DNA of 64,000 bases from Spirogloea muscicola (taxonomy: Eukaryota > Streptophyta > Zygnematophyceae > Spirogloeales > Spirogloeaceae). Location: contig WELB01000088.1 of the NCBI GenBank assembly GCA_009602725.1, forward strand, positions 196,048 through 260,047, in the 5' to 3' direction. The position numbers were made by a program, and so were the translations under genes. Under the pieces are notes generated by a model. That model worked only from the letters and a program-made list of their open reading frames with translations, searched no databases and had not been told where the DNA came from. Shown here one piece after another: positions 121-64,000 of the stretch (position 1 is its first letter; each line of letters starts with the position of its first letter).

Positions 121-208
121 CGTCGCCGCCGCTGCGGCGGGCGCTCCCGAGGCAGCGCCAGGCCCTGCGGCTGGCGAGCCCCTCGCGCAAGGTGCCGTCC
201 CGGCGCCC

Positions 209-3200
209 ATGGCCGACAGCGCCAAGCGCAAGGGCGGCGCCAGCCAGCGCAGGTGCGCCGGCGGCCCTCGTTGCAGCTCGACGCAAGCGACGCCTCCGCA
301 CCTCGCAGCGAGTCTCCCGCTTCATTAGGAAACTCGGTTAGACTAATTGACGTATGTTCAGTAACCAGGCAAGAAGCTTGATGCCCAGCGCGGCACCGGC
401 GAGCTCCTGACCTTGCGGCGGCTCTCGCCTGCGCCTGTGTCCGCAGCGCCAATGGCTCCGCCGCCAGGGCCAAGAAGAAGGCAACGACGGCGGCGGCGGC
501 GACGGCGGCGGCTGCCAAAGCTGAGGAGGCGGCCGCAGAGAGCGCTGCAGTCGAGGACGCAGCTCCTGCGGGCAGGGCCAGGGTCCCGGCCGGCGTCAAC
601 AAGGGCCGCATGCGCGTCCTGAAGCCCGGGCACCCCGGCGACGGCCCCGTCGTGTACTGGGTGTCGCGCGACCAGCGCGCCGTCGACAACTGGGCCCTGC
701 TCTATGCTGCGGAGCAGGTATGCAGCAGGGCATGCCTTTCCTGGCCTTTCCAAGCCGTTGCCTACTCGGCACCGCGAGCAGCCTGCGACTTCTGAGCTTG
801 TACACGCAGCAGTCGATTGTGTGTCGGTTAGGCAAGCAGTAAACTGTACCCTGGCGGAGATTGCTCACTTGATGGAATTGTTCAAGCGAGGTTGAGGGGA
901 ACAGCCCACAGCTGCGGACTAAGGCAGCTTGACTTAGCAGTGGTACTCTTGTCGTGGAATGGCAGGAGGTAGAAGTAGTGATAGTCAGTAGCAGACACAC
1001 ACATTATTCTATGTCTCTGTGTGGACAGTCCGTCCAACTAGCCGCTGAATTCTGCGACTGACATGCTGGACAGACCCGATTCCATGCCATGTCCAGGCCA
1101 AGGCCCGCGGCGTGGCGCTGGCGGTGGTCTTCAACCTCGTGGCCAGCTTCCTGAACGCCCAGGCACGCCACTTTGGCTTCATGCTGCGCGGCCTGCGCGA
1201 GATGCAGGCCGCCCTTGCTGACATGGGCATCCCTTTCTTCCTCTTCCAGGTAAACCCTCCGCCCTTCCCCTGCTCGCTTTTCCACTATGCGGACATCAGC
1301 AATGGGGTCTGTTGTCAGTTTACCATGTTTTAGAATGAGCACTTAGCAGTTTACATTCATAAAGGTGTGTGCCAGGTAAGCACAGGACACATAGAGCTGC
1401 ATGCTAATCGTCCACGTTGCGCGACTCGGTGTAATGGGTGTAGCACGACAGGCTCATCACCAATCTGAGCTGTGTCGAGATCCAGGGGAAAGCGGAGGAG
1501 ACGGTCCCTGCCTTCTTACAGAGGAGCGGAGCATCCCTGCTGGTCATGGACTTCTCGCCGCTGCGCATTGGGCGGCAGTGGCGCGACGGCATTTGTGCCG
1601 CTGTACCAGACCATGTTGCTGTACATGAGGTCGACGCCCACAATGTGGTGCCATGCTGGGTGGCTTCCGACAAGGTCTACTGCTAATGCCAGCACAATCC
1701 ATAATTGTGTCAAGTACATACAACGAGCATTACTGCTTCATACAGTGACGAGAACAATTGGGAAAGTTCTTCAGCTGATGTATGCAACAAGTAAGTAGTA
1801 TGTGCCAGATTTTTTACGTATTTGAGCAATTCGAATCAAGTGAGATCTTGTACCCTCTCAACACTTTGACATAGCAGCTGCCGTCAATACTTGCGGCTGC
1901 TGCAGTTGGAGTATGCAGCGCGCACAATCCGCACCAAGATCCACCGCCACCTGAACGAGTACCTCTGCGAGTACTGCCCAGTGCCGAAGCTTGAGCACCC
2001 ATGGAGCAGCACGGCACCAGACCCAATTAATTGGGACAATCTCATTGAAGAAGTCACCAAGTACGAGCCCATTGAGTGCTCGCTTTGTGCAGATGAATAT
2101 TTGTGACAAAGCTCGGCACAGGCAAGCTGTGTCTTAGCTTCGATTCACGCAGATTGAGCTTGCGAGGACGACATGATGCACTGCTCAGTCCCATCACTCA
2201 CATGAGTCACGCTTTGACCTCTGGCTCTCTGCTCTGTGTCTGTCAACGTTGCCAAGAGTGCTGAAAGTTGCTGCTCCACTTTCTCAAATTTAAGCCTTGT
2301 CAGTCATGTATTGCCAGGGTGGGGGCTGCTGTCCCCAAGGTGGACTGGATCAAGCCGGGAGCACAGGCGGCAATGGAGGGCCTCAAGACCTTCCTCAGGA
2401 CACGCTTGGCCAAGTACGACCAGGACCGCAATGATCCTGGGAAGCCGCTGGGGACCTCCGGCCTGTCCGCCTGGTTACACTACGGCCATATTGCAGCGCA
2501 GCGCTGTGCCCTGGAGGCCAAGGCCGTCCGCAAGCAGTTCCCTAAGGTGAATGCTGGGCGTTCCAGTCTCGGAGATTAATATCAAGATTGACCATTAATT
2601 TCTGTTTGACAGTTTTAAATACTTGCGCTGAGGGCTTACATAATACTCTTGGAGCACAGCCGGCAGACTCCTTCCTAGAGGAGCTGGTGGTGCGACGGGA
2701 GCTCGCAGACAATTACTGCTACTACCAGCCGGAGTACGACAACCTCGGCGGCGCCTGGGAGTGGGCCCAGGCCTCCCTCGCCAAGCACGCCCAGGACAAG
2801 CGAGAGTTTCTGTACACGTGAGCTTGGCATCTTCCGGTGCATTTTGCCTGCTCAGAGGCTGCAATCTTCTTGATTGGATGCTCCTGCAATGAGATTTAGC
2901 AGCATCAGTCGCCTATGTGCTTGCTCGCAGGAGAGATGAGCTGGAGCAAGCCAAGACGTATGACGATGTGAGTGCATTGACTTTGGTTATGACAATTCCT
3001 AGCGATTCGACTTCTACAAGATTTTGGTGCATCTTCAGTGTTCCTTCACTTGGTTTTTTCCAGCTATAGTGGATTGTTGCAGCTCCATATCCTCTACAGA
3101 CTTAGGTACACATGTCTACACAGTCGACATCCTAATTGGCTGGACTCTCTCTCTCAATCACAATTTCCTCTACTTGACAGCTCTGGAATGCAGCTCAATT

Positions 3201-4354
3201 AGAGATGGTGCACTACGGGAAGATGCACGGGTTCATGAGGTAAGGTGGCTGCTCCTTTGGGCTTCTGATTCCAACATCAATTTTGCCGTGTTGGTCTGTG
3301 TCTTATACCACTTCTGCTGAGGTACTTGTAGCATCCGGGTGATCTTCTAGCTCCTAGCTTGTGAGATGGTTCAGCTACCTCTGCAGTTCTTACCTGCTTC
3401 ACCATGCAGGGAAGCGTTATGAACTTTACACACAGCATCTGCTTGTGACAGAATGTACTGGGCAAAGAAGATCCTTGAGTGGACAGCGAGCCCAGAAGAA
3501 GCGATTGCAAGTGCTATCTACCTTAATGATAAGGTGCACAGTCACAATGAGCTGTATATCATGCTTCTGTATTTGCACATACATATCCATGGTCATCTTA
3601 ATCAGCTCTAGATGCCTTCACATATTTACTTTGAGCTGTCAGCATGGGGTCTCTGCTACATTCTGGCAGTTGCCTATGTGCATGCTTCTGCTCAACTGCA
3701 ACCTGCATGTGGGAAGCTCCAGTACGAGGTGGACGGCCGGGATCCCAATGGGTACGTCGGGTGCATGTGGTCAATAGCTGGCGTCCATGACCAGGTCGGG
3801 AATCCAGTGACCTCCTCACATTGCCCATTTTGCCCGTCCCCTTGCACTCCATCCTCCACATGCAGTATGAGTTGGATGGAAGGGACCCCAATGGCTACAC
3901 GGGCTGCATGTGGTCCCTCGCTGCTATCCACGACCGGGTCTGGTTCAGTGTCATCCCTGTCGTACATTGTCGTCCATCTGTGCTCGGTGCAAGTTCTCAT
4001 GCTTTGCAGATTAGTAAGGTGCAAGTCTTTCCAATAGGAAGCCAAAGGTTCCTGGTCCCTGAGATTTTCCACCACTGAAGTGGCCATATGTTGTCAGTGG
4101 AAGTTTTTGGAGCTAATACCTGGCATCAGCATCCTGGGCAGGGCTGGGGGGAGCGCCCCGTGTTTGGGAAAATCCGCTACATGAATCGTAATGGATGTGC
4201 GCGCAAGTTCAATGTGGGTGGCTATATAATGTATGTCAACAAGATGATGACCGACCTGAAGAGGAAGCGTGGAGTCCAGGGTAAGTTACAAGGTGATGGC
4301 GCGGCCAACCCAGACACTGCTGTAGGCAGCAAGCTGGCAAGCAAGGCCAAGTAG
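209..4354 (+). CDS. UVR2: Class II CPD photolyase, 12 exons plus one duplicated exon
   Basis: Repairs UV-induced cyclobutane pyrimidine dimers in DNA using FAD and blue light. Predicted exons are 209-252, 447-717, 1097-1249, 1486-1674, 1906-2060, 2318-2546, 2660-2817, 2931-2967, 3181-3239, 3452-3533, 3723-3794 or 3866-3937, and 4142-4354, joined in frame by GT-AG introns. With one copy of the duplicated exon the protein is about 553 residues, normal for the family. Class II hallmarks read in order: [19 protein letters not shown] (N-terminal photolyase fold), [87 protein letters not shown] and [15 protein letters not shown]; the last four form the FAD/active-site region. The N-terminal 80 residues are Ala/Lys-rich. 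ATG 209 is the first ATG, but the frame stays open upstream to the poly-T run, so the start is not certain. Confidence 0.95.
3723..3937 (+). repeat. Tandemly duplicated photolyase exon (two 72-base, phase-0 copies)
   Basis: Copy A (3723-3794) and copy B (3866-3937) each encode 24 residues of the conserved photolyase segment [30 protein letters not shown]. Each is preceded by AG and followed by GT (A: GTCGGG, B: GTCTGG), with a 71-base spacer. Both are phase 0 at both ends, so either copy, or both, could be spliced between exon 3452-3533 and exon 4142-4354 without a frameshift. Copy A ends HDQ, the residue usual before GW in class II enzymes; copy B ends HDR. Confidence 0.85.
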
Positions 4355-16244: not shown

Positions 16245-16313
<69 letters not shown>

Positions 16314-19300
16314 NCGCCGCGGCGGGGAGGGCGGCGCCGCTGCGGCTGCCTCGCCGATGCCCGGCGCCAGGCCGCTGCCAGGGACGGCGGCGGACGGGTC
16401 CCCGGAGACGGAGTTTGCGCAGTTCCGGTCCTGGCTGGACGACTTTGTCGACAAGGGCTCCCAGATCATGTCCGACGACTTCTACGAGCGCGTCCAGGCG
16501 TTCCTCAAGTCCGACTCCCAGAAGGGCGCCAAGGGCCAGGCTGGCGACGCCAAGTTTCGCCACACGGGTCCGCCAACCGACGCACACTTCGTGGCGTCCA
16601 GTCTGTGGTACTCAGCAGCTGCTCGTTAGTGCTCAGTGCTTGCAATGGTGTCAAAGCCGCAGCTCACGACTAAGGAATAATGCATGGGGTGTCCATGTGA
16701 TGCCAGTGCGCAAGAAGAAGTATCACCTTGTTACCGCGCCGCAGCTCGGCTTGCACGACGTTGTCTTCACGCTGAATGAGCAGGTAAATCTATGTGGTGT
16801 TCACGCCAAGTGTTTCACCTGGCGTGCTATGCATCAGGAGGTCAGGTTCTTTGAGCGTGTGCAGAGGCTGGATAGCCATCAACAGCTCAGGTCTTCTCTA
16901 TCTCCTCGTCTGCAGAACAAGCCACGGAGGGTGGTCCCACTCACACAGATAGCAAAGGTGCTCTACGACGTGCACGTCATCCAGACGCTGCATGGGGGCA
17001 TCAGAAAGACACATCGTGCCGTATGCACCAACCCTCACATGCTCATATGCGCCGCTCGGCGTCTTAATCACATCATATATTTCTGATCTTTGCACTTGAA
17101 TGCAAGCCTTGACTTTCTATGTAATTGGTCCATTGGGGATGAGTAGCAGCTATTCGTGCTTGAACGTAATATAGCATCATTGGATCTCTGCAAGCAGTTG
17201 ATGTCTGATGCTCTTTGCCTGACTCCTTGCTTGGAGTGGCAATCTGCATACAGCTGGGAGACCACTACGTCGGCATACCTGAGAAGGTGGTGCGCCAGTT
17301 CCTGCTCATGTGCCCCCTCTGCACAATGCAACGCGACGTCGATGGCACGCCCGTCTCTTCCCTGGGGCCGTACACGCAGATGCACCGCGGGCCCCGGCCC
17401 AAGGGGCACCCTCGCGCCGTTATCATCAAGAGCCAGAAGTCGCCTCCGCCGCTCTGGTCAAATCTGCAGGCAAGTGCTGAATGCTTGAGTACGTGAAAGT
17501 CTGATGCATCAGCCCTCGATGTTTGTGATGGGCTCTGACCTCGTTTTCTTATGTTGCAGGTTGATCTCGTGTGCATGCAGCATGCGCCAGATGGTCAGTT
17601 CTTGCACATTTTGCACCTGCGGGACCAGAGCTCGCGATTCAATGTGCTGGCACCCCTGACAAATGCAGATGCCTCGGCGGTGGCTCAAGAGTTGCTTCAC
17701 GTTTTCGCCCTCTTTGGCCCGTGTGCATGTCTCATGACCGGTGCAGGTGCGTGCTGAAGAGAATGAGAATCAGAGGCTTCCTCGAGAGGAACAAATGCTG
17801 GCTGCTGTCATGTCACTCTCTGCTCCATGCAGTGTCATGCTGTTGGCGCAATGATGACAACCTAAGACTTACCAATGCCCCGGATACTTCTGAAGCAGGA
17901 GCAACGCTGCAGTTCTTGCATGCCGTTCAAGAGGAGCTGCAGGTGTTGTGGCCAGGACTTCGTCTCGGCCTCAAGTCGCACGCCCCACATTCAGACCTCC
18001 CATTCCCTGAAGTAAAAGCCCTTCTGACAAATGTGCGGATGAGATGCATGTATGCTTCAGAGCAGAGGGTAGTGCCCTTTGTCCCTGACCCCATGATTGA
18101 GAAGTCACCACTTGGGCTGCAGCTGATGCTCGTGAGGTGGTTGTGAGTCCCTGATTGTTGACAGTGGCAACTATTATATATTTGCAGTTGGGATCCGGCC
18201 TTGGCAACAGCCGCCTTGCACATGTGCTACAGGATTGGTCCAGCAGCACAAATCGCTCTGACTGGGGCTCTGTGTTGCCACTTATCCAGTGTAAGTGAAC
18301 GCCCTAATTGAATTCTTACTAAGCTGCAAACATCTAACAAGTGATGGTGTACGATCATGTGATGCATACTCTGATGCACATCGTCATGAGTGCATCAGCT
18401 AATCTCTGGGTGTGCCCTTCGCTGCACGAGGGTGCAGGGCAGCTGAACACAGAGAAGGACACCTTGCTGAAGCTGAGTCCCTTTGTACTGGCACTGGGAC
18501 GTAAACCTCGACGCGTGACTGGCGATGACGACCAGGTGGAAGAAAGCGCCGACGAAGAGACACTCAGCAGCCTCTTGGACGCTCCAGAAGGTGCGCCAAT
18601 GTCCTGCCTTAGCTAGAGGGCATTCCCAAGTTTCTCTAAGCTCTGGGACTTTCTCTGGAATTCTTACCACCTCAGTCCTATCGTTGTGCATCCTCATTAA
18701 TATTGCAAGCAGGTCTTCATTTGGGTTTGGGTAGAGTCTGTTTTTAGGGTTCAGAAGTCTTGTGCTTCAAGCATGCCGGATTCCACTTACCAATAAGTAC
18801 CGGATGATTGACCAGCCACTTTGAGGCTTGTCACTGGCCCCAATGCTGTCACTCTGTCCGCATGCTCTTGCTGCTGGTTGAACAGCAGGCCCTGCCTGCA
18901 TTTCCGCCTACAGAGGCCTCTCTCCTTGACCCGTGTACAGCAGACGGCTGATGGTAGCTCTCTGTCTCATGCCTAGCTGATGAGGCTTGGCTTGGGGTCA
19001 GTACATGGGAAAGCAGGAGTTGTGGTCCATGAGTCGGTCTACTAAATGCTTATCGGTCTTGATTTATTGTCTGAGCACGTTATGATGGATTGACTGCTGG
19101 CCGCCAAGACAAGAATGAAATGAACCCCTGAATGAAAAGGGTCAAAGATGCAGGTCGGTCTTCACCTAAAGCAGACTTGCTTTGCTTCTGCAGATCACCT
19201 TGACTTGGGGAATCATGACCGGTGGCGATCATTTAGCACACCAGGTACACTGCAACAGTCTCAAGCAGGAAGGCATGTGCATAAGCGGGGTTGTTGCAGG

Positions 19301-27931: not shown

Positions 27932-31772
<3,841 letters not shown>

Positions 31773-56303: not shown

Positions 56304-57089
56304 NNNNNNNNNNNNNNNNNNNNNNNNNNNNNNNNNNNNNNNNNNNNNNNNNNNNNNNNNNNNNNNNNNNNNNNNNNNNNNNNNNNNNNNNNNNNNNNNN
56401 NNNNNNNNNNNNNNNNNNNNNNNNNNNNNNNNNNNNNNNNNNNNNNNNNNNNNNNNNNNNNNNNNNNNNNNNNNNNNNNNNNNNNNNNNNNNNNNNNNNN
56501 NNNNNNNNNNNNNNNNNNNNNNNNNNNNNNNNNNNNNNNNNNNNNNNNNNNNNNNNNNNNNNNNNNNNNNNNNNNNNNNNNNNNNNNNNNNNNNNNNNNN
56601 NNNNNNNNNNNNNNNNNNNNNNNNNNNNNNNNNNNNNNNNNNNNNNNNNNNNNNNNNNNNNNNNNNNNNNNNNNNNNNNNNNNNNNNNNNNNNNNNNNNN
56701 NNNNNNNNNNNNNNNNNNNNNNNNNNNNNNNNNNNNNNNNNNNNNNNNNNNNNNNNNNNNNNNNNNNNNNNNNNNNNNNNNNNNNNNNNNNNNNNNNNNN
56801 NNNNNNNNNNNNNNNNNNNNNNNNNNNNNNNNNNNNNNNNNNNNNNNNNNNNNNNNNNNNNNNNNNNNNNNNNNNNNNNNNNNNNNNNNNNNNNNNNNNN
56901 NNNNNNNNNNNNNNNNNNNNNNNNNNNNNNNNNNNNNNNNNNNNNNNNNNNNNNNNNNNNNNNNNNNNNNNNNNNNNNNNNNNNNNNNNNNNNNNNNNNN
57001 NNNNNNNNNNNNNNNNNNNNNNNNNNNNNNNNNNNNNNNNNNNNNNNNNNNNNNNNNNNNNNNNNNNNNNNNNNNNNNNNNNNNNNNNN
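56304..57089. other. Assembly gap (786 N) between two divergent genes
   Basis: Separates the 5' ends of the CRM gene (-) and the TARBP1-like gene (+); it should contain both starts and a shared promoter. Confidence 0.99.

Positions 57090-64000
<6,911 letters not shown>

Follow-up and report, generated by a model that had tools for sequence, protein, structure and literature searches.

What looks like an intact class II CPD photolyase gene in the alga Spirogloea muscicola carries two neighbouring 72-nt exons, A and B, that encode alternative versions of its lesion-binding segment. We consider it likely that an old tandem duplication became a mutually exclusive exon pair, that selection has kept both members, and that a branch point near the donor of A blocks A-B joining, so that the gene would give two protein forms of equal length.

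The photolyase gene and its exon pair

The window, which is the whole 64,000-nt stretch analysed (C88:196048-260047), belongs to an assembly of 153.1 Mb in 471 contigs. Its first 4.4 kb hold the photolyase gene (122..4354, plus strand). Hand splicing from the sequence gave a reading frame that is open from base 122 through a stop codon at 4354, with 10 exons before the repeat, the alternative exons A and B, and one last exon, separated by 12 introns. The start codon of this model is unfixed, and a 120-base T run stands before base 121. With exon A the product matches TIGR00591 (phr2) at 636.4 bits and with exon B at 629.3 bits, both above the curated cut-off of 550.05; the match is full length (profile positions 3-452 of 453), and the Pfam match is PF00875. 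The 92-residue C-terminal piece, searched against Pfam on its own, matched no family. The solved structures nearest to this C-terminal part are those of rice (3umv) and Methanosarcina mazei (2xry). In the alignment to 2xry, Asp428, Arg441 and the lesion-stacking Trp421 (roles per PMC6126647) are all kept with either exon. Judged by its sequence, the gene is an intact-looking class II CPD photolyase.

The exon upstream of the pair (3452..3533, plus strand) is constitutive in our model. It ends in YLNDK at a phase-0 donor, AAG/GTGCAC. Exon A lies at 3723..3794 and exon B at 3866..3937, both on the plus strand, and each translates into 24 residues. The last exon (4142..4354, plus strand) begins with the remainder of the bubble-intruding region and has the stop codon at its end. 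Both alternative exons are preceded by CAG and followed by GTC, and both are in phase 0, which matches exon 3452-3533 and the exon from 4142 onward. All of their splice borders are GT/AG, with lowish acceptor scores of 5.6 (A) and 6.1 (B). An earlier note on this DNA had described two 72-base, phase-0 copies with AG/GT borders lying 71 bases apart and differing at six residues (V/L, V/T, I/L, G/A, V/I and Q/R); coordinates, borders and phase held on checking, and we see the same six differences. The pair is thus neighbouring, alike in sequence, equal in length and phase, and equipped with splice borders.

A and B agree at 53 of 72 nucleotides and 18 of 24 residues, and the 19 nucleotide differences are split 5/3/11 over codon positions 1, 2 and 3. 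Exon A of one locus matches exon B of another in blastn with E values of 9e-12 to 1.3e-9, which excludes chance similarity. The ungapped direct repeat is 81 nt long (75% identity) and reaches barely past the exon edges, so the flanking introns have kept almost no trace of the duplication.

We considered the GTC donors of A and B as a special feature and dropped the idea, because GTC also occurs in photolyase intron 1675-1905 and in 6 of 34 chaperonin (CCT) introns. Donors with C at +3 are fairly common in the chaperonin and photolyase introns of this genome, and their share in the chaperonin set exceeds what would be expected from plants or animals.

Several other features of the region were recorded. 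At 4282-4354, the C-terminal tail following a GTAAG-like sequence is open and conserved in all three loci described below, with a 12-nt insertion in C79; it may be a coding tail or a retained intron-like stretch. Downstream of the photolyase, open frames on the plus strand match the AAA ATPase domain PF00004 (28790-29788) and a class II alanyl-type tRNA synthetase, PF01411 (35414-35977). T runs adjoin N stretches at 16249-16314, 27967-28011 and 56304-57213, and positions 1-120 of the window are 120 T, at the place where the photolyase homeologs in C124 and C79 approach N runs. These T runs, including the one at the window start, look like an assembly gap artefact.

Both exons are under selection in three loci

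Exons A and B each match at three loci, C88, C124 and C79. Across these loci a 5-kb photolyase region is collinear at 84-86% identity (blastn), and both exons are present in the same order in all three. A protein query covering this part of the gene gave 12 matches, every one an exon of C88, C124 or C79, and thus no sign of a separate gene for a single form. Many conserved genes, chaperonin and HSP70 genes among them, likewise have two or three copies that have diverged and lie on separate contigs; the assembly looks as if the genome were triploid or hybrid and its homeologs had been left unmerged.

Purifying selection acts on both exons. Across the three loci, 3 of 72 sites vary in exon A and 1 of 72 in exon B, all of them synonymous, against 472 of 2063 sites (23%) in ten other photolyase introns (Fisher p 3e-5 for A and 3e-7 for B). 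For exon B, about 13 replacement changes would be expected at the intron rate and none is observed (Poisson 2e-6). The claim of the earlier note that both copies are under selection is therefore borne out. The coding sequence as a whole has dS of 0.16-0.18 and dN of 0.014-0.019 between loci. Of the three introns around the pair, the middle one varies at 7 of 68 sites (p 0.012) and the upstream one at 29 of 179 (p 0.025), rates that are slower and slightly slower, respectively, at modest significance uncorrected for several tests; the downstream intron, with 44 of 201 variable sites, is not slowed.

When A is compared with B, 11.8 to 12.8 of the 15.3 synonymous sites differ, which is saturated, and dN is 0.139. 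Set against the homeolog dS of 0.16-0.18, this makes the exon duplication much older than the three loci. The six residue differences between A and B are identical in all three loci; together with the lack of replacement changes, this indicates that both exons are under protein-level selection and that neither has been overwritten by the other.

A short middle intron with a donor-near branch-point motif

The intron between the two exons (3795..3865) has lengths of 71, 69 and 68 nt across the loci. Its neighbours are much longer: 189, 192 and 186 nt upstream (3534..3722) and 204, 211 and 209 nt downstream (3938..4141), the latter with a branch-point-like motif 24-25 nt from the acceptor. The other 11 introns of the photolyase model span 113-379 nt. 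For a wider sample, intron lengths in the genome were estimated as gaps between neighbouring family matches in conserved genes (chaperonin, HSP70, class I tRNA synthetase and proteasome; 304 listed rows, homeologs counted apart). Among the matches listed, 132 intervals qualified, the shortest being 92 (HSP70), 93, 96, 96 and 99 nt, and 16 merged matches contained an in-frame insert of at least 45 nt, the smallest of which, found in two homeologous rows, measured 84 nt. None of these lengths, neither the 132 intervals and 16 merged matches among those listed nor the 11 introns of the same gene, is as short as the middle intron. Splice sites could be placed for 36 of the 43 chaperonin intervals (7 were left without) and agreed with the estimates, the shortest credible intron being 93 nt. 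A 57-nt intron at C255 was rejected: it scored low, lay 15 residues off and had an interval estimate of 96 nt, with 110 nt in its homeolog, C332.

The middle intron holds a single yTnAy motif, CTCAC, in all three loci; donor A is 23-24 nt away from it and acceptor B 45-47 nt. In the window it occupies 3815..3819 on the plus strand, and the predicted branch-point adenine at 3818 is separated by 24 nt from donor A and by 47 nt from acceptor B. As a comparison set we used 45 other introns, 11 from the photolyase and 34 from chaperonin genes, the latter kept at a splice score over 9. The motif is degenerate. It peaks 20-39 nt before the acceptor, with 28 matches in two 10-nt bins against 1-11 in other bins out to 90 nt, an enrichment of about two-fold. 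Two of the 45 are devoid of a yTnAy that keeps a distance of 50 nt or more to the donor and 15 nt or more to the acceptor.

The 3' part of the middle intron is rich in pyrimidines. They make up 73-76% of the last 45 nt before the AG, the highest value among the introns compared; the 34 chaperonin introns reach at most 71% and the remaining photolyase introns 69%. The intron is free of AG for 54-56 nt before the acceptor. Two of the 34 chaperonin introns have longer AG-free tracts, of 97 and 100 nt, and so does photolyase intron 2968-3180, where the tract measures 75 and 78 nt in two of the loci.

Dscam-type competing structures were sought by folding, and in alifold, with three sequences only, the exon-intron-exon core showed nothing beyond control introns: A-intron-B gave z -0.85, against -2.15 and -2.46 for two control introns. 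With the same few sequences, the whole stretch 3534-4141 scored lower, at z -3.74; folded as a single sequence it gave z -1.92.

Proposed mutually exclusive splicing and its alternatives

In the mechanism that we propose, exon 3452-3533 would be spliced to one of the two, A or B, which in turn would be joined to the exon at 4142. Joining of A to B would be blocked because the putative branch point of B sits just 23-24 nt past donor A, closer than the minimum of about 50 nt that is reported for assembly on a 5' splice site and a branch point at the same time. Such a block at the level of splicing is needed by the model, since 72 nt is a multiple of three and joint inclusion would stay in frame. 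The products would be two proteins of equal length, with six differences in the segment against which the flipped-out pyrimidine dimer is stacked and locked in place. The earlier note had proposed mutually exclusive splicing: intron size and branch-point geometry support it, and exclusivity itself, like use of the branch point and a functional effect, is something that we infer. An added role for retention of the middle intron, as a safeguard that shifts the frame, was dropped; 71 and 68 nt shift the frame, and the 69 nt of C124 keep it.

If A and B were instead independent cassettes, transcripts would carry A, B, both or neither, and some non-functional products would lower enzyme output. Every combination is in frame, and splicing noise of this kind is common in eukaryotes. 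We nevertheless regard this as unlikely, as it leaves unexplained both the residue-level upkeep with six fixed differences in three loci and the geometry of the introns.

Slightly less credible still is constitutive inclusion of both exons, which would insert a further 24 residues immediately ahead of the bubble-intruding loop. This segment keeps one length in the rice and M. mazei enzymes, and the alignment is gap-free here for 80 of 81 related loci (the best 80 of at least 531 prokaryotic loci by query similarity, plus one distant viral locus). The joint form would keep the frame across splice borders that are all GT/AG, and its total HMM score is no lower, at 665.5 bits, but it matches the family model in two stretches only. 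The intron that would have to be removed to join A to B is also shorter than all those sampled, and its sole branch-point-like motif is the one 23-24 nt from the donor.

The idea that either copy is a decayed remnant or a product of misassembly deserves almost no credence, and nothing was found in its favour: the pair is present in three diverged loci, which excludes the assembly duplication that the earlier note had named as a test, barring an identical misassembly of all three; neither exon has a replacement change, and A-B synonymous divergence is saturated while the residues are conserved.

What the exon swap would change

Aligned to M. mazei, the exon covers residues 406-429; the offset between chain and published numbering was checked by the spacing of Asp428, Arg429, Trp431 and Arg441. 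According to the passages of PMC6126647 on this site, Trp421 stacks behind the dimer, Asp428 is strictly conserved, and residue 429, in the bubble-intruding region, is an Arg that touches unpaired bases, may allow varied dimers to be tolerated and is replaceable with Gln, Met or His. The earlier note had placed the differences in the neighbourhood of the FAD site. This needs one correction: in M. mazei numbering, what the exon mostly encodes is lesion-binding residues (Trp421, Asp428 and residue 429), in place of the FAD site proper.

Residue 429 is Gln in A, as in rice, and Arg in B, as in M. mazei. Residue 425, about one helix turn past Trp421, is Gly in A and Ala in B. Among the 81 relatives (best 80 of at least 531 prokaryotic plus one viral), Arg occupies position 429 in 80 and His in the remaining one, position 425 is always Gly, position 417 is Ala in 34, Val in 24 and Thr in 23, and position 408 is Leu in 76. 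By this comparison, exon B combines an accepted bubble residue with one change at an otherwise invariant glycine. A prokaryotic origin of exon B, which Leu408, Thr417 and Arg429 might suggest, was rejected: Cys419-Met420 match rice, and Met420 occurs in only 3 of the 81 relatives (best 80 of at least 531 prokaryotic plus one viral).

The likely effect of the swap would be an altered filling of the DNA bubble, with a change in affinity or dimer preference, and we infer that the A and B forms differ in dimer binding or preference. More tentatively, splicing might tune the UV-damage photolyase of this single-celled alga. Here the plug at 429 would be swapped, and Gly425 to Ala would change the packing of the helix that lies behind the lesion. 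The two resulting enzymes would differ in which dimers they prefer or how strongly they bind, and each would serve under its own conditions of light or damage; we consider this further step possible, at somewhat less than even odds.

Discussion

Duplicated exclusive exons and the distant-branch-point device are already known, and the unexpected part is the gene in which we propose them, a photolyase. One of the closest parallels is OGDH, where the branch points of exons 4a and 4b lie 25-41 nt from the donor, under the limit of about 50 nt, and enforce exclusive use; alpha-tropomyosin and alpha-actinin are earlier cases of donor-near branch points (passages of PMC7969005). In human, interference of this sort is possible in 57 (9%) of the clusters of exclusive exons (PMC5740500). 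The photolyase pair resembles OGDH 4a/4b in its adjacent alternative exons, the short intron between them, a donor-near branch point (predicted here) and the long pyrimidine tract that follows. It differs in that OGDH, alpha-tropomyosin and alpha-actinin are vertebrate muscle or metabolic genes whose branch points have been mapped and whose isoforms have been measured, whereas this is a DNA-repair enzyme of an alga and the branch point is a motif.

Duplicated exclusive exons are well studied in animals. In the literature searched, which covered few subscription papers, the search for verified cases in green algae found one, Volvox carteri cyn23. According to the relevant part of PMC4378016, its two exclusive exons are equal in length (106 nt) and its isoforms are of the same length with 13 residue differences, which resembles the pair described here. 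Unlike the photolyase, whose pair is known from sequence, cyn23 encodes a cyclophilin-type protein and both of its isoforms were verified by RT-PCR. The same literature yielded no photolyase with mutually exclusive exons in algae or plants, and a term search of the main text of a review of microalgal splicing (PMC12702839) found neither "photolyase" nor "exon duplication".

The rice (3umv) and M. mazei (2xry) enzymes belong to the same family, and in them too the exon corresponds to the segment with Trp421, Asp428 and residue 429. Each has a single version of that segment, with Gln429 in rice and Arg429 in M. mazei, whereas one gene encodes both here. The pair is a natural experiment on residue 429, which crystallographers, in passages of PMC6126647, proposed to help accept different dimers. 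It is also compact and open to test, consisting of a 608-nt stretch with three natural variants and a six-residue difference in a structurally solved site. The geometry of the middle intron suggests that the distant-branch-point rule of vertebrates may work in algae too. If the proposed reading is true, the lesion-recognition site of a photolyase would be selected at the RNA level.
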